Shown here in pieces: positions 1-9,445 of a stretch of 24,216 bases of DNA. Made by a program: the position numbers and the translations under genes. The notes under the pieces were generated by a model. The model made no database searches, was not told the origin of the DNA, and saw only the letters and a list, made by a program, of their open reading frames with translations. Location of the stretch: positions 1 through 24,216 of the IMG/VR virus record IMGVR_UViG_3300049856_000035; one strand, given 5' to 3'. Position 1 is the stretch's first letter. Every line of letters begins with the position of its first letter. The stretch is from a virus.

Positions 1-2258
1 CCCTGCCCATTGGGTTTGTTTGTCTGGTACGGAGTGAGTTGCACCCTGGAGAATTTACTTCCATCACTTTCAAGGGGGAGGCTGACACCGGAGAGGTCAA
101 AGACTTTAATCGGTGCTTCGCCTTCGTTTCCGGTCCACACTTCCAGTCGAGTCGCGGGCTGGTTGTAAGCGCCGAGCGTAAATTTGTACGAGTACGTGGT
201 CCACGTGTCGGCAACGTACCGCTTACACGTTCCGGGTGCCGTACTGGTCTGATTGCGATACCGGCAGTCAACGTCCGGCATTTGGTGAACGAAGTCACCG
301 TTAGCCAGCGCAATCTCAAGCGGGTATGAGCAAGACTTGTACCACTGCGGGTAGCCTCTCAAGTAGTTATTCACCTGCACCATCTGATACCCGGTGCAGG
401 AACCGCCAGAGGCCGGGTGCAATATCCACTGCTTCCAGCCGTTAGAGCCGGTGTGTGTGGATGGCGTCAGAAAGGCAGAGTCATACCGCTGACGGTATTG
501 CCAGTACAGCGTTTCTCCGGGGCCGAAGTGATCGGACCATGTGCCGCCAGCCAGCGCTTCATCCCACAGTGGTGCAATCCAGTACCCCGCAGAGTTTTCT
601 CCCGCGTTTATGGGTAGCGTGAACCGAAGGGACGACACACCGGAGGACTTCACGCTGGTGTCTCGAACACCCTGAATGTTTCCGTACCCGTCAGGTTGCA
701 AGTTTGTCAGAGTGAAGTCAGCGTCCGTGTCCCAAGTGGTGCATCGCTTAACTCCTGCCGCTGCGCACCTTGTCGCAAAGTCACCCGTCCCGCCCGTACC
801 AGTATTGACAATGACCTGCACGCTGGACTGCGCTGTGTTGCCACTCTGAGACAGCAAGCCCGCACAGGTCAGAGTGAAGGTGGAGGTGGCCGTCGGCGAC
901 ACTGACTGCGTACCTGACGAGGCTTTCGTCCCGCTCCAGCCCGTGACGGCAGGAACCGCAGACGCCGTGCAGGCACCCACGTTCGAGGTTGACCAGGTTA
1001 AAGGGGCCGAGCCACCCGTGTTGATGCTGGGCTGCGTGGTGGTGAGGCTGACAGCTGGCGGAGGATCGGCAGGCGGTGAGCCGCCACAGCCTGGACCTGC
1101 GCCACCGGTCAGGCGGTAGGCGTAGACGGGCGTGTCCGCGTAGGACGCGGTGACAAACCCGCACAGCCCCGGCACGTAAGCCCACCGCCCGAACTCCAGT
1201 GTGTAGACGCCTACTTGAGTGGGTGAGGCGGAGCCGGCAATGGCGGTCACGTTCGCAAAAACCCAATTGCCAGTGTGCGTGGTCTCCCAGCCAGCCGGTG
1301 GGGTCAGGGTGACGACGGTCGTGCCTTGGCCCTTGTAGGCCACGCCCTTGTCAGCAATAGGGTCCCACTCAAAGCCCGAGGCTTCGTCGGGGAAGGTCCC
1401 CGTGTACGGCACGTTCAGGTAGCGCACCGGGGTGCCGGTCGAAACATCCCAAACGTGCAGGTCCTGCTGGGTGGTGCGCGTGTCCAGCAGCACCAGTGCC
1501 TTCAGGCGCGGCGAGAAGCCCATCGTGCCGTTCAGGCCCGGATTGGCCCCAAGGTAAGAACTGACCACTCCAGTCACCGGATCAATGCTCTGTAACTGGT
1601 TGCCTTGCGAGGCCCCGCTACCGCAGGCCACGTACTTGTTACTGCCGTGCCACCAGATTTTGTTATTGGCGGAGTCCCACGTGGTCAGCGAGGACTCACC
1701 AGCGCCATTCGCGCAGGCGTCGTTGAAGGTGTTCAGGTGCGCCACAGTCCGCCACGTCGTACCCGTCAAGGCCAGACCGTGGACGTGCCCCGTTCCCCCA
1801 CCACCGGTCGGGTAGTTCGACGCGGAGCCGACCTTGTAGAACTCGTTTAAGTTTGGCGAGTAGGTGAGGTGATCGTAGGTGTGGCTGGCGCACGGCTTGC
1901 CGTCGGAGATCAGGGAGGTCGTAGCGTTGCAGGCCGTCGATGCGGAGCGGGTGAAAGGCATGGCCCACCGGCCTGTTGCCACGTCGAAGGCATAAATTTC
2001 GTTGCCGCTGTAATCGGTGTGCCCGCCGCCAAACACCAGCAGCGACCCCAGCGCCCCGTACCCTGAAGCAAACGCACCGCCGCTGAAGGCCAGCACGCCA
2101 CGCATGGACGAAACGTCTGGCTTTCCAGACACCGAGAACATCGTGCTGCCCGTACCGGACGGGACACTGATCGGAACGAACTTGTTCTCGACCAGATCGC
2201 CGGGCGCCGCCCCGAAGGCGAGGAGGGGGAGGAGGAGGAGGGCGTAGATCAGTTTCAT
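1..2258 (-). CDS. Secreted kelch/Ig/jelly-roll surface protein, 3' end outside window
   Basis: I read one uninterrupted frame of 752 codons from ATG 2258 to the left edge, so the C-terminus is missing. Residues 1-17 form a Sec-type signal peptide (Lys2, then a leucine-rich core ending AFGA). Residues about 25-385 look like a kelch or galactose-oxidase-like propeller, with LLVFGGGHTDYSGNEIYAFD at 73-92 and SHTYDHLTYSP at 125-135. Residues about 400-485 resemble a bacterial Ig-like domain with Cys430 and Cys465. From about 495 on, WQYRQRYD, GWKQWILHP and VQLTPYQT suggest a concanavalin-like jelly roll of the polysaccharide-lyase type. The ATG overlaps the preceding tailspike stop by four bases (ATGA), implying coupled translation. 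I infer a glycan-binding or glycan-degrading role. A Sec signal is odd for a virion protein, so it may be exported by the infected cell. Fold assignments are by eye. Confidence 0.82.
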   Translation of the reverse strand, partial: MKLIYALLLLPLLAFGAAPGDLVENKFVPISVPSGTGSTMFSVSGKPDVSSMRGVLAFSGGAFASGYGALGSLLVFGGGHTDYSGNEIYAFDVATGRWAMPFTRSASTACNATTSLISDGKPCASHTYDHLTYSPNLNEFYKVGSASNYPTGGGGTGHVHGLALTGTTWRTVAHLNTFNDACANGAGESSLTTWDSANNKIWWHGSNKYVACGSGASQGNQLQSIDPVTGVVSSYLGANPGLNGTMGFSPRLKALVLLDTRTTQQDLHVWDVSTGTPVRYLNVPYTGTFPDEASGFEWDPIADKGVAYKGQGTTVVTLTPPAGWETTHTGNWVFANVTAIAGSASPTQVGVYTLEFGRWAYVPGLCGFVTASYADTPVYAYRLTGGAGPGCGGSPPADPPPAVSLTTTQPSINTGGSAPLTWSTSNVGACTASAVPAVTGWSGTKASSGTQSVSPTATSTFTLTCAGLLSQSGNTAQSSVQVIVNTGTGGTGDFATRCAAAGVKRCTTWDTDADFTLTNLQPDGYGNIQGVRDTSVKSSGVSSLRFTLPINAGENSAGYWIAPLWDEALAGGTWSDHFGPGETLYWQYRQRYDSAFLTPSTHTGSNGWKQWILHPASGGSCTGYQMVQVNNYLRGYPQWYKSCSYPLEIALANGDFVHQMPDVDCRYRNQTSTAPGTCKRYVADTWTTYSYKFTLGAYNQPATRLEVWTGNEGEAPIKVFDLSGVSLPLESDGSKFSRVQLTPYQTNKPNGQ

Positions 2259-4672
2259 ACTTGTTCCCAAACAGTGCCGTTGGCGAGGAAGGTCTTGAAC
2301 TCGCCCGTGTTCGCGAGTGTCGGTGCAGCCGGCCAGAGGGTTCCGGCAGCGGTGGCGATGGTCACCAGCCCAGTCCCAAGTCCGCGATGCTTGACCGTGA
2401 TGCGCGTCCCCGTCAGCAGCGACGGGTCCGGCAGGGTGATGGTCTGCGTGGTCGAGGTGCGAGCCGCCATGACCGTGATCACGCCCTTCTGTACCGTGTG
2501 CGGCGTGCCAGTGGGGGATTCGATGTAGGCGTCACTGCTAACCCGCATCGTCCCGGTTCCCGAGATGTGACGGTTGAACATCCCGTCCGCCCCCGACAGC
2601 CCAAAGTACGACCCGAAACAGTCGTTGTTGTCGATGGTGATGGAGCACGTCCGCGACGTGAAGCCGGTCATCGTGAAGCCCGAGCCGCTAAAGCCGATGA
2701 TGGTGTTGTTCCACGAATTGGCGGCCGTCACCGTGTCGTTGCTGTGCAGGGTGTTGTCACTGACCGTGACGGCAAACGAGTCCTCGGCACGAACGAGGTA
2801 GGTGTTGGCAGAGTTCTGACCGTCGCATCCTGGGTTGTGTTCGTAGACGCGGTTGTCGCCGATCCCGACCAGCGCCGAATTGAACACGTAGATGCCATGT
2901 GCTGAGGTGTAGGGCTGGTTGTCGTTCGCCCCGGCAGGGTCTTGCCGCTGATAGCCGTTACGCCGCAAGACGTTCCCGGAGATGTCGCAGTTGTTGGCGT
3001 ACACCGCCCGGATGCCTACGCACGGAGAATGCAGGATGACGTTGCCGGTGATCGAGAGATCGGTGATCGGCGTGCTGGTGTCTTCACCAGTGACCTGAAT
3101 GCCCGAGCACGTGCCGATATCGTTGTAGCGGGTTTTCTTCGGATTGGCCGATCCGGCCACGTCCAAGTCAGTGCCGTCCCACGTCTCCGTTGGCGACAGG
3201 AAGTTGATGACGTTGCGGGCGATGACCACGCCGTTCGCCGGATAGCCTGTTTTCTCCGTAGCGACTGTGATGGCGTCGTGGTCACCGGCCCCCGTGCCTG
3301 ACAGCACCCCGCACAGGAACCCGCTGACCTGATTGTCAGTAATGTTGACGTTGCGCAGGTAGGAATTGTTCGTGGCAAACGAAGCCACCTCCACCACCAC
3401 CGCGCTGTACCCGGCCTTGCGGATGATGTTACCGGTGACGTTGATGTCAAGACACGGCTTGGCAGAAGCACGGATCAGAACAGCCGTTCCACCAGTAGCG
3501 TTGAACCGGTTCTTTGAAAGCGTCAGGCCGTTGTTGTTGTTGCCAACAAACCCGGCCACGTTCTGCCACGCCGTTTCGGCGCGGTTGACGCCGACATACT
3601 CGAAGTTGTTTTCTTCAACCGTCGCGTTCTCGTCATTGAAGAACAACATGCCTTGGTCGGTGTCAGCAGCGCGGTTGCGGCTGAACACGACGTTTTTAGC
3701 GGCCACCATCGTCCACGAGGCCCCGCCGTTCTGCACGCAATCCTGAACGGAGATGTTGCTACCGACAACGGCGCCGTCGATCACGCCGGTATTGCCAATC
3801 TGCAAAGGACCGATCTTCACGTCAGCAATTGAGAACGACAGGCCGCGCATGGTAAAATTCGAGACCACGCCGCTCTCTTTGTAGAACAGGCCGTTCTGGT
3901 AATAGCCGCCACTCAAGGCCGCATTGCGATAGGTGTTGCCGGAGGCGCCGACGACGATGGTCGCCCCGTAACCGCTCACCGTCATGTCATCGAACAGTTC
4001 GACAAGGCTGGAATTCGTCACCAGATACTCACCGGGGTCGAACAAGATCGTGGCCGGCGTGGCACTGGCGAACGCCGCCGTCCGGCAGGCTTGAATGGCC
4101 GCCGTTGAGTCTGTGTTCCCGGTCTTGTCAGCCCCGAAATCCTTGACTCGATACAAGCCCAAGGCCCGCGACACCCCCTGATACCCGTTCTCCAGCCGCC
4201 AGATGTTGGCGTGGGACTCGGCATAAATCGTCCACTGCCCCGCCACGAAGCAGAAGCCCTGAACAACCCCGAAGTCCAGAATCTCAAGGTAACCGCCTGG
4301 ATCACCCCCCAGAAAGCTCTCCGCCCCGTAGGGTTTGAACCTGAACACGTTATCCGTCAGCCGTGCCCCGTCGAAGAACGCCCCCACCGTGGCTTGAGGC
4401 AGGGTCAGGGTGACCGATCCTGGCGCTTGATAGTTGGTCAGGACCGGGATCAGGTCAGCGGCGAACAGGGTCGCGTCTGTCAGATACGCCCGCTGCGTGG
4501 TCGAGTTGTTGATGGCCTGAATCAGGACATCAATCGAGGTCTTGGCGGTCTTGCCAGAGTTTGCTGCCGAGCCGATGCCGATGTAGTCGTTGACGGTATC
4601 AACTTGGGCGTTGGAGGTGTACTCCAGCGCCACATCCTTGATCAGCGTCGGGATGACGGGGTTGTTTGCCAC
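2255..4672 (-). CDS. Tailspike protein 2 (pectate-lyase-like beta helix)
   Basis: 805 residues. Starts at GTG 4672, supported by AGGAG five bases upstream. The N-terminal 170 residues would attach to the virion and do not resemble the N-terminus of the other spike. YRVKDFGADKTGNTD at 174-188 is the usual entry motif of pectate-lyase-like right-handed beta helices. The following several hundred residues are rich in repeating N/G/V turns (for example ITGNV, VQDCVQN, ISGNVLRRN), as expected of helix coils. The last 90 residues (from about VQKGVITVMAARTST) look like a separate beta-rich cap of the kind used for trimerisation. The likely role is host-surface glycan recognition and cleavage. Active-site residues cannot be assigned by eye. 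It lies 8 bases after the 84-residue gene and overlaps the kelch gene by four bases. Confidence 0.85.
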   Translation of the reverse strand: MANNPVIPTLIKDVALEYTSNAQVDTVNDYIGIGSAANSGKTAKTSIDVLIQAINNSTTQRAYLTDATLFAADLIPVLTNYQAPGSVTLTLPQATVGAFFDGARLTDNVFRFKPYGAESFLGGDPGGYLEILDFGVVQGFCFVAGQWTIYAESHANIWRLENGYQGVSRALGLYRVKDFGADKTGNTDSTAAIQACRTAAFASATPATILFDPGEYLVTNSSLVELFDDMTVSGYGATIVVGASGNTYRNAALSGGYYQNGLFYKESGVVSNFTMRGLSFSIADVKIGPLQIGNTGVIDGAVVGSNISVQDCVQNGGASWTMVAAKNVVFSRNRAADTDQGMLFFNDENATVEENNFEYVGVNRAETAWQNVAGFVGNNNNGLTLSKNRFNATGGTAVLIRASAKPCLDINVTGNIIRKAGYSAVVVEVASFATNNSYLRNVNITDNQVSGFLCGVLSGTGAGDHDAITVATEKTGYPANGVVIARNVINFLSPTETWDGTDLDVAGSANPKKTRYNDIGTCSGIQVTGEDTSTPITDLSITGNVILHSPCVGIRAVYANNCDISGNVLRRNGYQRQDPAGANDNQPYTSAHGIYVFNSALVGIGDNRVYEHNPGCDGQNSANTYLVRAEDSFAVTVSDNTLHSNDTVTAANSWNNTIIGFSGSGFTMTGFTSRTCSITIDNNDCFGSYFGLSGADGMFNRHISGTGTMRVSSDAYIESPTGTPHTVQKGVITVMAARTSTTQTITLPDPSLLTGTRITVKHRGLGTGLVTIATAAGTLWPAAPTLANTGEFKTFLANGTVWEQV

Positions 4673-4680
4673 GGCAGCTC

Positions 4681-4935
4681 CTAGAACAGCACCCAGACGC
4701 CGGTTGCGGTCGTGCCATTGCCGGTCGAGTAAATCTTGGTGACCTGCATGACCTCCTTCTCACCGGCTGCAAACGGCCACAGCACGCCCGTCCTGCCGTT
4801 GGAGAAGTCCACCTTCAAATCACCCGCACCGATGCATTTAATCATCCGTGTTGGCGAGTCAAAGGTCGTGTCTGCGGCAAGGCTGACGTTGTAGCCGTTC
4901 GTGCCGCCGCGCAGTTCGTTACTGATGGTGCCCAT
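4681..4935 (-). CDS. Small beta-rich protein, possible spike-base/adaptor
   Basis: 84 residues from ATG 4935, preceded by AGAGGA about six bases upstream. No signal peptide or membrane segment. The sequence alternates short beta-prone stretches with glycines (YNVSLAADTTFDSPTRMIKC, GAGDLKVDF, EKEVMQVTKIYSTGNGTTAT). This pattern resembles small spike-base proteins found beside tail-fibre genes, such as the RCAP_Rcc01079 family of gene transfer agents, but that comparison is from memory and only moderate. Its position between two tailspike genes suggests a joint, adaptor or attachment protein for spike 2. It could instead be a minor decoration protein. Confidence 0.6.
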   Translation of the reverse strand: MGTISNELRGGTNGYNVSLAADTTFDSPTRMIKCIGAGDLKVDFSNGRTGVLWPFAAGEKEVMQVTKIYSTGNGTTATGVWVLF

Positions 4936-4956
4936 GGTTAATCCTCTGCTTCGTGG

Positions 4957-5016
4957 TTACGAATTGGCGCTACGGCCAATCTCAACAAACTTGATGCCTG
5001 ACGTTGACATACGCAT
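4957..5016 (-). CDS. Possible 19-residue micro-ORF between spike genes
   Basis: The stop codon of tailspike 1 (TAG at 5017-5019) is followed immediately by ATG at 5016, opening a 19-codon frame (MRMSTSGIKFVEIGRSANS) that ends at TAA 4957. Nothing but the direct abutment argues for translation; no clear ribosome binding site is visible. It fills most of the 81-base gap before the next gene. It may simply be untranslated spacer. Confidence 0.2.
   Translation of the reverse strand: MRMSTSGIKFVEIGRSANS
4963..4980. other. Intergenic inverted repeat
   Basis: ATTGGC and GCCAAT form a perfect six-base-pair stem around a six-base loop in the gap between spike 1 and the 84-residue gene. No T-run follows on the minus strand, so it is not a convincing intrinsic terminator. 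It could be an mRNA processing or stability hairpin, or chance. Confidence 0.3.
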
Positions 5017-7203
5017 CTACAGCGCCAAATCAACGTACGTGCCGGTGTCGTTAGTGTAGAACCGCATTTCAGCACCAATAAACGCAGTAGTGTACCGACG
5101 CTGACTATTTGCCGAGCCAGCGTCATCGGCAAGCGAATTTTCCAACGCTTCACCGTTCCACGTCCGATCTAAAAACTCCACCCCTTGGTTATTGCGAAAG
5201 TTGTTCCAGACGCTAAACACCGCCACATCTGCCGTCTTGATGTTCTTGATGTAGTTAAAGCGATTCTGCGAACACCCCCAAGGCGTCTCAAACGTTCCAG
5301 CAGCGCCCGCCCCTGTTGTAGTTGCGAACAGGTAGGTGGCTCCGTGGATGTAGTTATGCTCGAACTTTATCTGACGCAGTTGCGCAGCACCAAGACCGAC
5401 ATTCGCCTGAATAACGGCCCTTGTGTTGACCGTCGTTGCTCCAGTGAAACCGGCCGACACGAACGGTTTGGCAAAGAAGAAATTCCCCTGCACCAACGCG
5501 CCTACCAAGTTAGGGCCAACGACGTAAACGCCGACGTTGTAATTGCGCACTTGGTTGCCGCGAACGATTGGCCCTTGAATCTGCCCCTCTGGGTAATTAG
5601 CATCGGCGGCATTGTCGGTTCTAATGCGCACAAACGACTGACGATTAGTGTCAGTTGCCGCAGTCGTCGGAAACTCCGTTGGGTTGTTGGCTATCACGAT
5701 GCCGCTCATGGGGTGATGCGTCATGTAATCAGCTCTGGCGGCCACATAAGCGCTCAATCCCTCAGCATTGATATCGAAGGCGCCGCCTTCTGAATCCGCT
5801 GTTGAGCTGAGAGTCGTTGGGTTGCCGGTCACCGTGACGCTATAGGCTGGAGCAGACACAGTGACGGCGGTTGGATATCCGATGATTGTGTTGCGCGTAA
5901 CTGAGCACAGCCGCGACCGGACTTTTACCGCCGAGTCAGCGACAAACGAAGGCGAGTCACACAGGAACGTGTTGCCGTCAACCTCAACGTCAACACCTGC
6001 TGGGTAAGCCGGTATCTCGCTGGAGTTGTAGCAATAGTTGTTATTGAATTTCCAGCCGCGCCCAGAACGCTTTACCGGACCAAGCGACCAGCCAGCAACC
6101 GTCGGCGTGTACGTATTGGCCTCAAAGGTCAACGGCCCGTCATACGACGTTTCGCCGCTAAAACAAGAATCGCAATATTCAAAGCGATTGCCGCTGTCGA
6201 TTGCAATGCCATCCACTCCGTCGCAATTAATGGCATGAATAAGCGCCCGTCCGCTGGTCGCGTGCGCAGTGGCTAGAAACTTGCAGTTAGTTATCTTCGC
6301 GTCGTAGTTCTTGGTTGTGTTGTAACTCACAGAATGTACATAGTCGTAAGTCACTGGCTTTTGATACGTGATGGCTGCTGAATCAATCTTGGTAAACGTG
6401 CAGCCTTCAACTGTCGTGTGCGCGCTGTTCTTAAACACTATCGCATCGCGAAAGTCTGTCAGTGCATTGCCTGGCGTTGCGTGTCTGGTATCGTTCCCTT
6501 CAAACACAAACCCCTCAATAGTGACGTGCTCGGTTGCCGCAGCAGCGTTGTTGTCCGGCGTGCCAACCAGAACCAACGGGTACGCTAACGAGTATGTCGA
6601 TATGTCGGCGTTATATCGAAGCAGCTTTGCGCCATTTCCGCGCAACGTAACTTTTGATCCGGTTACTTTTATCCCCCATTTGTCATTAGCACCAGCGGAA
6701 CGCCGGATGTAGCAATTCCATCGTGCTGGAAAATCAATGACGCCACCGGTACTTCCAAGTACCGACAGCGCGGTATGCGCGGCATCCGTAACGTCAGTGC
6801 CATTGACTGCCCCGTAGCGTCGAATGTCCAAAGCCTGATACGCATAACTAACCGGCGTCACTCCAGCCGCAATCTCCGCCGCCGTCCGTGGGAACAACAC
6901 CGCGCCAAGCTGATCTATCGTGAGGACCTCTGAATACTCAAACTCGGTCCATTGCTCCACCCCCGCCGAGTTCTTCAGCGTCACGTCGTAGCTCACCGAG
7001 CTATCCAGCCAAATCGCCGGGAACAGCCCGCCCGTGTCTGCCACCACCGGATCAGCATGGGGCGTGGTTAAGGCCGAGTCGTAGTACACCGGTGAAGGAG
7101 TCGAGGTTCCAGAGACGACGAAGTACAGCTTCGCCCCGCTCAGGACGGTTCCCGACGGGGTAAACTCACGACTGCGCGGGGTGGTGAATAGGGTCGATGA
7201 CAT
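5017..7203 (-). CDS. Tailspike protein 1 (virion adaptor plus beta helix)
   Basis: 728 residues from ATG 7203. Residues 1-95 match a common phage fibre adaptor pattern: FTPSGTVLSGAKLYFVVSGT, then VYYDSALTTPHADPVV, then GGLFPAIWLDSSVSYDVTLK. Residues 128-141 (IRRYGAVNGTDVTD) are the typical entry to a right-handed beta helix, followed by short repeating coils with N/G turns (VTIEGFVFEGND, TTVEGCTFTKID). The role would be adsorption to, and probably depolymerisation of, a surface polysaccharide. The DNA encoding the body (roughly 5040-6840) is more AT-rich than the N-terminal 350 bases and the neighbouring genes, which suggests the receptor-binding part was exchanged separately from the adaptor. 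The ribosome binding site is weak (GGAT eight bases upstream). A 148-base gap separates it from the ejection gene upstream. Confidence 0.88.
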   Translation of the reverse strand: MSSTLFTTPRSREFTPSGTVLSGAKLYFVVSGTSTPSPVYYDSALTTPHADPVVADTGGLFPAIWLDSSVSYDVTLKNSAGVEQWTEFEYSEVLTIDQLGAVLFPRTAAEIAAGVTPVSYAYQALDIRRYGAVNGTDVTDAAHTALSVLGSTGGVIDFPARWNCYIRRSAGANDKWGIKVTGSKVTLRGNGAKLLRYNADISTYSLAYPLVLVGTPDNNAAAATEHVTIEGFVFEGNDTRHATPGNALTDFRDAIVFKNSAHTTVEGCTFTKIDSAAITYQKPVTYDYVHSVSYNTTKNYDAKITNCKFLATAHATSGRALIHAINCDGVDGIAIDSGNRFEYCDSCFSGETSYDGPLTFEANTYTPTVAGWSLGPVKRSGRGWKFNNNYCYNSSEIPAYPAGVDVEVDGNTFLCDSPSFVADSAVKVRSRLCSVTRNTIIGYPTAVTVSAPAYSVTVTGNPTTLSSTADSEGGAFDINAEGLSAYVAARADYMTHHPMSGIVIANNPTEFPTTAATDTNRQSFVRIRTDNAADANYPEGQIQGPIVRGNQVRNYNVGVYVVGPNLVGALVQGNFFFAKPFVSAGFTGATTVNTRAVIQANVGLGAAQLRQIKFEHNYIHGATYLFATTTGAGAAGTFETPWGCSQNRFNYIKNIKTADVAVFSVWNNFRNNQGVEFLDRTWNGEALENSLADDAGSANSQRRYTTAFIGAEMRFYTNDTGTYVDLAL

Positions 7204-7351
7204 TGACTGTATCCAATAAAAAAAGACGTTGAATCGCGGTCTGAAGTTTCAGCAGCCATTGGTATGGCCGGACTGTCACTGATTTACTCGACGTGGTTCC
7301 AACACCATCCCTGGGTGTTTGCCTTGATCTGCGGGTTAATCTGCTGCATGG
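7204..7351. other. Largest intergenic gap (148 bases), ejection gene to spike 1
   Basis: This is the longest stretch without a confident gene. It contains an inverted repeat AACACC/GGTGTT with a seven-base loop at 7301-7319. It also has a 12-base palindrome-like CTGAAGTTTCAG near 7240-7251, and a run of seven A at 7218-7224 (T-run on the transcribed strand). The hairpins are not placed next to the T-run, so I do not call a terminator. No promoter with good -35/-10 spacing was found on the minus strand. A small plus-strand ORF starts inside the gap. Confidence 0.5.
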
Positions 7352-7398
7352 CTATCGCTGCTGATCGGCAGTCGCGCCGCCAACCGCCGCCCCAGTAA
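7264..7398 (+). CDS. Possible 44-residue membrane peptide on opposite strand
   Basis: An ATG at 7264 opens a 44-codon plus-strand frame ending TAA 7396-7398. The product has a hydrophobic stretch WVFALICGLICCMAIAA followed by a basic, proline-rich tail (DRQSRRQPPPQ), a one-pass membrane layout. Against it: no clear ribosome binding site, it overlaps the 3' end of the ejection gene antisense, and everything else in the window runs leftward. A frame of this length can arise by chance. Confidence 0.2.
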   Translation: MAGLSLIYSTWFQHHPWVFALICGLICCMAIAADRQSRRQPPPQ

Positions 7399-9445
7399 GC
7401 GGGGCGATCTGCCTCGCTGGCAACCCACGAACCGCAGCCGTGGCTTGCGCGGTACTTCGCGCCCCTGCTGCAGCCTGTATCCCGGCCCCAGCCAGCGCCC
7501 CCGTAGGCCCGCCAGAGACGAATCCAAACACCTGCCCTAACTGCTGAATGCCCTTCATCAGAGCGTTGGTTGAATTTGACGTGTTTACCACGCCATCTTG
7601 CGGGATGCGTGCGCGAGCGAGTTGCACAAACTCACCAATCGCCCGGCGCTCCTGCGAGGAGAAGATTGTTGCGAGATTCTCTCGATACCCCCCATTGAAG
7701 TAGGTCTCATAACGAGAGACCACGAGGCGAGGACTGATCCCCTCGTTCTTCAGGGCGGGGCGGAAGATCGACTCCATGACGCCCTGCTTCATCGCTTGAT
7801 GGGCCGGACTCCCCGCCCCGTTCACGTCGATGATCCTCCGGGCCAGTGCGCGGTTGTTCAGTACGCCGCGAATGGCCGTCTCGCCGGTAGCAGCATCGCT
7901 CCGCAGCCAGTTCACAACCTCAGTCTGAGCGCCCTTCTCAAGCCTCCCGGCGTCCCGCGCTGGCTCACCGAAAACCTGCTGGTATCGCCTGAACAGGTCA
8001 CGTCCGGTCCGCCAAGCCTGCACGGCATCGGTCGGGCCAACAACCTGCCCGTCATCAAGTGCCCTGTTCACCATGTCATCAAACTCGGTGCGGAGGACGC
8101 TCAGTCCGATCCTGTCCGTGGCATCGGCCTCACGAGACAGGCTGTTGATGAGTTTGCGGGTTTTCTCAAGATCCTGAAGCGGGATCTTGCGCGGGGCCTT
8201 ACTCCCCATGCCCTCAAACCACGCCGCATTCCCCCGCAGCCGCTCCAGCATCTTTGCCGTGCGAGGCATCAGGTCGGCGTCATAGCCCACCTCTGAGTTC
8301 TGGAGGTTGTCGTCAATTTCAGCGAGGAACCCTTTAAACGCCCGCGAGTCCATCGCTGCGTCAGCGTCTCTGGCTTGGGCGTAAGCATCGCGGTATGCAG
8401 CCCTTGCCGCGTCCGCCCGCGCCCGCGTGGCCTGCATGACTGTCTGACCAGAGGTAGCCGCGTCAGCCCCGGCGGCTGGTCCGGCCACTTCCCGCTGCAA
8501 CAGCCCCATGCCGGTGTTGCCGTTCGCCCCGAGCATGGCTTCGTCGGCCTGGTCACGAGCGCCCCGGATGATCGTCCCGGCCCTGGACGAAACGTCCATC
8601 TTCGCCAGGTTCTCCTCCAGAGACTGTTGGGCGTAGTCATCCGTGAGCTGCCCGCGAGTCAGGGGGACGCCGAAACGGTTGGACAGGGCCGTATTACGAA
8701 CCGCCGCGGGAATCTGTTCGTCCGGCAGGGCGGCACTCGTGGCCGTCCGCGCTGCCGCTTCCAGTTGCGCTGCAAGCTGCCGGGTCATCTGGCCCGGATC
8801 TAAGCCGTACTGCTGGGCAATCGCTGCGCCTTGGGCCGTGAGCGTGCCGTTTGGGGCCACTGCCTGCGGCTGAGTGCGAAGTGCATCCCAAACCTTACGC
8901 CCCTGCGCCGATACCCACGACAGGCCAGCACTGATCGGCTTGGACAGGGCCTGACCGCCCGCACTGAACGCCCCAGTTACGGCGGCTTTCACCGGGTCGA
9001 TGCCCTGTTCAGAGCCTTGCGCCATTGCTGCTGCGTCCTCCGCCACCGACGTGGCACCGCCAGCCAACCCCGCTCGGCCTATCTGCGTCGCTAAATTTGC
9101 CCCACCGGCACCGAATTTAGCCGCCGGGAGGTACTTCACCACCGAGCTGGCAAAGTCCACCATGTCGGCAGGGTCAAAACCGGGTTTGTTGAGATACCCG
9201 GTCTGCCCCTGATAAGTGGCGATGATGTTTCCCTCGGGATCTTTCTCAAACGTCGCTCCGGGGAGGGTTTTGGCGATAATGTCGGCCCGTGATTGGTCGT
9301 CTGTGGTCGTGAAATAAGCCAAACCGAGCCGCAACCCCTGCCCAACAGTCACCGGAGGGTCAAAATTACCGACCTTGCTGTAATCGGGCGGTGGCGCGTC
9401 GAACGGATCGACCACTTCGGCCCGATCAAACGGATCAGTTGGCAT
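7352..9445 (-). CDS. DNA ejection/internal virion protein, gp16-like position
   Basis: 697 residues from ATG 9445; a GTG at 9451 in the same frame is an alternative start, and neither has a strong ribosome binding site. It overlaps the preceding gene by 11 bases. Residues 1-100 include a proline/aspartate-rich leader (MPTDPFDRAEVVDPFDAPPP). An Ala/Gly-rich, membrane-active-looking stretch follows around 115-175, then a long helical, charged region (about 210-560) and a small Ala/Gly-rich tail. Size, composition and position as the last of three ejection genes match P22 gp16 (609 residues), which leaves the capsid with the DNA and helps it cross the envelope. Sequence identity to gp16 is not obvious by eye, so the call rests on layout and composition. 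Confidence 0.72.
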   Translation of the reverse strand: MPTDPFDRAEVVDPFDAPPPDYSKVGNFDPPVTVGQGLRLGLAYFTTTDDQSRADIIAKTLPGATFEKDPEGNIIATYQGQTGYLNKPGFDPADMVDFASSVVKYLPAAKFGAGGANLATQIGRAGLAGGATSVAEDAAAMAQGSEQGIDPVKAAVTGAFSAGGQALSKPISAGLSWVSAQGRKVWDALRTQPQAVAPNGTLTAQGAAIAQQYGLDPGQMTRQLAAQLEAAARTATSAALPDEQIPAAVRNTALSNRFGVPLTRGQLTDDYAQQSLEENLAKMDVSSRAGTIIRGARDQADEAMLGANGNTGMGLLQREVAGPAAGADAATSGQTVMQATRARADAARAAYRDAYAQARDADAAMDSRAFKGFLAEIDDNLQNSEVGYDADLMPRTAKMLERLRGNAAWFEGMGSKAPRKIPLQDLEKTRKLINSLSREADATDRIGLSVLRTEFDDMVNRALDDGQVVGPTDAVQAWRTGRDLFRRYQQVFGEPARDAGRLEKGAQTEVVNWLRSDAATGETAIRGVLNNRALARRIIDVNGAGSPAHQAMKQGVMESIFRPALKNEGISPRLVVSRYETYFNGGYRENLATIFSSQERRAIGEFVQLARARIPQDGVVNTSNSTNALMKGIQQLGQVFGFVSGGPTGALAGAGIQAAAGARSTAQATAAVRGLPARQIAPLTGAAVGGATADQQR

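Follow-up and report, generated by a model that had tools for sequence, protein, structure and literature searches.

P0001, placed last in the tail operon of a P22-like podovirus, probably encodes a late-made, Sec-exported protein of bacterial type that was acquired by the phage and that would bind, and perhaps cut, exopolysaccharide matrix; judging from sequence comparisons, we give this reading a probability of roughly 0.55. We favour a Sec-exported matrix binder that acts outside the virion because P0001 lacks a head-binding domain, belongs to a family of proteins that bacteria secrete, and has its expression linked to the late synthesis of a tailspike. The gene lies at one end of a 24,216-base virus record (the window, meaning the whole stretch of DNA analysed), which also carries P22-type coat, portal, head-closure and terminase genes. 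The 24,216-base fragment shows no lysogeny gene. The relevant features are as follows.

3..2258, minus strand: P0001, putatively exported protein with propeller, Ig-like and C-terminal domains, truncated by the contig edge (752 codons open; bacterial and phage relatives)
2211..2258, minus strand: Sec-type signal sequence, residues 1 to ~16 (rule-based score; bacterial and several phage relatives also have one)
1098..2195, minus strand: kelch beta-propeller, residues 22-387 (Pfam Kelch in all members of alignment A3, PDB kelch profile matches, AF2 model and fold search)
789..1073, minus strand: Ig-like domain, residues 396-490 (homologous to the Ig-like repeats in bacterial proteins L182, L185, L186 and L190)
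3..788, minus strand: conserved C-terminal domain, residues 491-752, cut by the contig edge (similarity to L180, L204, L227, L240 and L241)
2255..2258, minus strand: ATGA overlap of the tailspike 2 stop and the P0001 start (sequence)
2255..4672, minus strand: tailspike 2, 805 aa, pectate-lyase-like beta-helix, no signal peptide (Pfam PF12708, E 1.6e-8)
5017..7203, minus strand: tailspike 1, 728 aa, virion head-binding N-domain, no signal peptide (A2 profile match at 6943-7203)

The P0001 frame, its signal sequence and its domains

P0001 opens at an ATG at position 2258 and runs off the contig edge, giving at least 752 codons without a stop, and its ATG shares the TGA of tailspike 2 in a 4-base overlap (ATGA). 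The sequence-only reading had proposed a frame of this length with a Sec-type signal, beginning inside the stop of tailspike 2, and this was borne out. Comparison with the bacterial protein L241 indicates that about 25-45 residues of the C-terminus are missing. The tailspike 1 gene lies upstream of that for tailspike 2 and is the sole bearer of a head-binding domain in the record; the A2 profile, which also matches PDB 7eeq, has its single match in the record there and detected no P22-type head-binding N-domain in P0001. Between the genes we found no sites above chance for a promoter or terminator of P0001's own. A recent transfer of P0001, judged by composition, was rejected, as its GC content and codon use match those of the phage.

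The N-terminus (MKLIYALLLLPLLAFGAAPGD) passes a rule-based n-/h-/c-region signal-peptide score: the n-region is charged, the hydrophobic core spans ~13 residues and LLA or AFG could serve as the -3/-1 site, with cleavage predicted after residue 14 or 16. All signal peptides were called with this simple n/h/c-region rule, and marginal cases were judged by eye. The propeller begins ~5 residues past the signal. Although P0001 alone falls below the curated cut-off, Pfam Kelch families were found in 7/7 members of alignment A3, and the propeller profile matches the kelch domain of Keap1 (E 3e-9). Single-sequence folding of P0001 gave a pLDDT of 34; the AF2 model of residues 22-387 has pLDDT values mostly of 70-95, and a fold search with the model returned the LZTR1 kelch domain (Z 26, 286 residues at 3.0 A). 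The layout first proposed from the sequence, of propeller, Ig-like domain and jelly roll, is thus upheld for the propeller by profile and model and for the Ig-like domain by homology; the C-terminal domain is conserved, but its jelly-roll fold was not confirmed, this part being modelled poorly in the AF2 prediction. Similarity to polysaccharide lyases is marginal, consisting of a Pfam PL14 match (E 0.013) in one relative, in a part whose fold is poorly predicted; P0001 itself has no Pfam PL14 match, and no PDB match supports a lyase family for its C-terminal part.

Relatives in bacteria and phages

Searching with the single P0001 sequence recovered no relative from 50,697 phage records, plasmids, PHROGs, NCBIfam or the PDB, the lone family-level match being a sub-threshold Pfam kelch match, and a peptide-pattern search of viral and genome contigs likewise gave none. 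Relatives first surfaced in a whole-genome search of gammaproteobacterial genomes, where the propeller is matched by separate bacterial proteins at ~30% identity (E to 1e-21), and the C-terminal domain by L180 at 38% identity (E 9e-32), a protein that has the propeller too. A profile built from the propeller alignment recovered 34 viral contigs. The C-terminal domain was seen in three bacterial proteins (L180, L240 and L241) and in phage L204 and L227, every time together with the propeller, and in L241 the propeller, an FN3-like linker and the C-terminal domain follow one another as they do in P0001.

Where the N-terminus of a bacterial relative can be seen, it mostly bears a signal peptide. 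Neighbouring genes were identified for two of them, L244 and L246, and both lie inside XrtA/PEP-CTERM exopolysaccharide loci. The L246 protein is flanked by TIGR03088/TIGR03108 and TIGR03087/TIGR03108 genes (XrtA/PEP-CTERM glycosyltransferases and amidotransferases). Near the L244 protein are a flippase, TIGR03100/TIGR03101 (exosortase-A hydrolases 1 and 2) and TIGR03099 (exosortase-A decarboxylase). Moreover, the XrtA marker TIGR03087 scores over its cut-off in 9/12 genomes with the propeller, compared with 45/328 others (p=5e-6). On the basis of these loci and this enrichment, the propeller family appears to be tied to exopolysaccharide-matrix biology; we found no report of kelch proteins in PEP-CTERM exopolysaccharide systems in open-access full text. 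Like P0001, the L244 and L246 proteins combine a signal peptide with a propeller, and L246 also has the FN3-like inter-domain linker and the C-terminal domain of P0001, in the same order. However, they are chromosomal and stand among exopolysaccharide genes, whereas P0001, which is ~25-30% identical to them over the propeller, is encoded in a phage tail operon; it is the relatives, not P0001 itself, that are XrtA-locus proteins. Together these proteins define a so far unnamed propeller family linked to exosortase-A exopolysaccharide, whose members are candidate slime-binding or slime-cutting reagents.

Among the viral propeller proteins, signal peptides were called by rule in L204, L205, L206, L211, L216, L218, L219 and L227 and by eye in L202, L210, L228 and L229; many others have none and start directly at the propeller. 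L205 is certainly a phage (terminase E 8e-233, portal) and its signal, MRRIILSLLLAPLLAFG, closely resembles that of P0001, while L204 and L227 carry propeller, C-terminal domain and signal peptide. In the propeller tree, signal-bearing, signal-free and bacterial sequences interleave, and P0001 falls among signal-free phage sequences on long branches. The signal-free phage propellers count against our preferred reading, since they indicate that the propeller also serves without export, possibly on virions.

Several viral contigs contain runs of large signal-bearing genes. L210, a phage contig with a head-closure gene, has five consecutive large genes (3413-9149; 255-482 aa), each with a signal-like N-terminus, and L204 encodes at 1268-7066 a 1,932-aa protein with a signal peptide, 28 cysteines and no Pfam match. 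An idea that disulfides are involved was dropped, as signal-bearing tailspikes have no higher cysteine density than signal-free ones (p=0.22), and signal-bearing propellers not clearly so (p=0.08). Gln seems often to follow directly on the likely cleavage site in signal-bearing phage proteins (L050, L055, L058, L146, L167, L204, L205, L216, L218, L219, L227 and L228), a pattern shared with signal peptidase I sites in certain bacterial phyla.

Signal peptides at the tailspike position of related phages

We surveyed 130 distinct loci with a tailspike head-binding-type N-domain, scoring genes of at least 200 aa on the tailspike strand; the contigs are metagenomic and the results derive from sequence alone. 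The signal rule was passed by 0/471 upstream genes, by 9/120 tailspikes, a rate biased upwards by the use of signal-bearing tailspikes as seeds in one search, and by 7/62 of the next downstream genes (conservatively 4/59), a contrast with the upstream genes that does not depend on tailspike seeding in the same way. Three rule passes were set aside as false: L025, L050 +1 (membrane acyltransferase-like) and L058 +1. The genes of interest are listed below.

Signal-bearing tailspikes, signal before a head-binding-type domain:
L019 7932-10124
L030 7947-10241
L031 7929-9128
L041 7938-9059
L050 7938-9998
L055 1866-3344
L060 4496-6829
L068 7899-9107
L092 8001-9500
L132 7974-10178
L167 8001-9731
Signal-bearing proteins downstream of a tailspike:
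L058 11981-13153, DUF1996 (Pfam E 3e-32)
L020 12741-14039, DUF1996-like by eye
L027 12640-13971, DUF1996-like by eye

In these ~11 distinct tailspikes the signal consists of 15-25 added residues before an otherwise normal N-domain, and some of the genes have a clear ribosome-binding site with few open codons upstream. The N-domain behind the signals matches the solved head-binding domain 7eeq (E 1.4e-21); the same domain is found in P22-type tailspikes of solved structure (PDB 7eeq and 9vyg), in tailspike 1 and in the tailspike of Xanthomonas phage PBR31. The P22-type isolates checked start at this domain and have no signal peptide: in cultured and other deposited phages, similarity to the signal-bearing tailspikes begins past the signal, and in four deposited records that we inspected the tailspike begins, with no signal, a few residues ahead of the domain. 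An absence of export signals from tail proteins, the premise of the sequence-only reading, describes the isolates checked but is contradicted by these ~11 phages. On the tailspike tree, nine changes are needed to account for the signal-bearing sequences, and a single clade is not rejected (p=0.08). The genes downstream that bear signals are varied in kind. The L167 tailspike lies in an Acidobacteriales MAG, with no obvious phage neighbours.

In each of 11 virus records searched, including those of 39-58 kb, the signal-bearing tailspike is the single head-binding-type gene, and it mostly sits directly after cysteine-free genes located where P22 has its ejection proteins. By the textbook account, tailed-phage virions assemble entirely in the cytoplasm, a scheme that does not explain a signal peptide on the sole tailspike. 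Tentatively, we entertain the idea that in a group of P22-like podoviruses both tailspikes and tail-accessory glycan proteins are produced as Sec precursors, such that the sole head-binding tailspike would be exported, would fold in the periplasm and would join tail-less particles at or after lysis, assembly then taking place partly outside the cytoplasm. By analogy, the addition of exported tail proteins to particles at lysis is feasible, because the P22 tailspike joins finished heads last, also in vitro. If the tailspike itself were exported, a textbook rule of phage assembly would fail. We found no description of signal peptides on phage tailspikes in open-access full text, a search outside which lie most subscription-journal papers and all preprints. 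Where reports on isolates mention signal peptides, it is mainly in lysis genes (PMC12989515, PMC10194101). Phages of Porphyromonas gingivalis carry signal-peptide genes, indicating Sec substrates beyond lysis genes (PMC10367356); unlike P0001, these belong to phages of Bacteroidetes hosts, have unknown functions and have no described link to a tailspike.

Proposed function of P0001

In the reading that we favour, a P22-like podovirus took up a bacterial-type secreted matrix protein and set it last in the tail operon, where ribosomes re-initiating at the ATGA overlap with tailspike 2 would produce it late. Export would fall to the host Sec machinery, and signal peptidase would remove the N-terminus of the protein. 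In the periplasm, and outside the cell after lysis, the propeller and C-terminal domain may bind, and perhaps cut, host exopolysaccharide, which could help progeny to leave, or to reach slime-embedded cells. The sequence-only reading had offered an exported enzyme that strips capsule or matrix; the secreted matrix protein is supported, with bacterial relatives that are mostly signal-bearing and come from exopolysaccharide producers, but the marginal PL14 similarity does not carry the enzyme, and lyase activity is unproven. If exported proteins are consistently encoded at the tailspike position, phages would have a second way of dealing with capsule and slime, in which the infected cell secretes matrix proteins.

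Two published proteins resemble P0001 in part. Gp40 of Xanthomonas phage PBR31, a related podovirus, is a 215-aa SGNH esterase with a signal peptide, similar to tail-associated hydrolases, which its authors suggest may aid lysis (PMC10975493); unlike P0001, it has no propeller. WceF of Pantoea stewartii has an export signal and a phage-tailspike-like fold and acts on exopolysaccharide (PMC7949094), which shows that bacteria can export enzymes of a tailspike-like kind that act on slime. In contrast to P0001, it is bacterial and not phage-borne, has a Tat signal and a beta-helix, and lacks a propeller.

Rather less probably, P0001 belongs to the virion as a receptor-binding component, maturing in the periplasm and being added to the particle during or following lysis; the signal-bearing tailspikes may behave likewise. 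Its location in the tailspike operon, the ~11 related phages whose sole head-binding tailspike has a signal peptide, the late joining of the P22 tailspike to heads and the signal-free propeller proteins of other phages, which could be virion parts, are all consistent with this. However, P0001 has no recognisable virion-binding domain: ~5 residues separate the signal from the propeller, and no more than ~25-45 residues are missing from the C-terminus.

It is unlikely that the hydrophobic N-terminus is an uncleaved anchor or inherited relic on an ordinary tail protein assembled in the cytoplasm. Signal-free phage relatives do exist, but unrelated proteins repeatedly show small -3/-1 side chains and charged n-regions, large genes with signal-like starts occur in the surveyed loci solely at the tailspike and downstream of it, and a relic would be expected to decay, whereas the hydrophobic core in P0001 is intact.

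The end of the tail operon is a usual place for lysogenic-conversion cargo genes, and the relative L240 is encoded in a bacterial genome within a phage-like stretch, yet a lysogenic-conversion factor that alters the lysogen surface, the other suggestion made at the outset, is very unlikely given the ATGA coupling of P0001 into the late tail operon, the lack of a promoter or terminator of its own and the absence of any visible lysogeny gene from the window. The phage-like stretch that contains L240 (L243 7564-17001; G270) also carries further signal-bearing genes.
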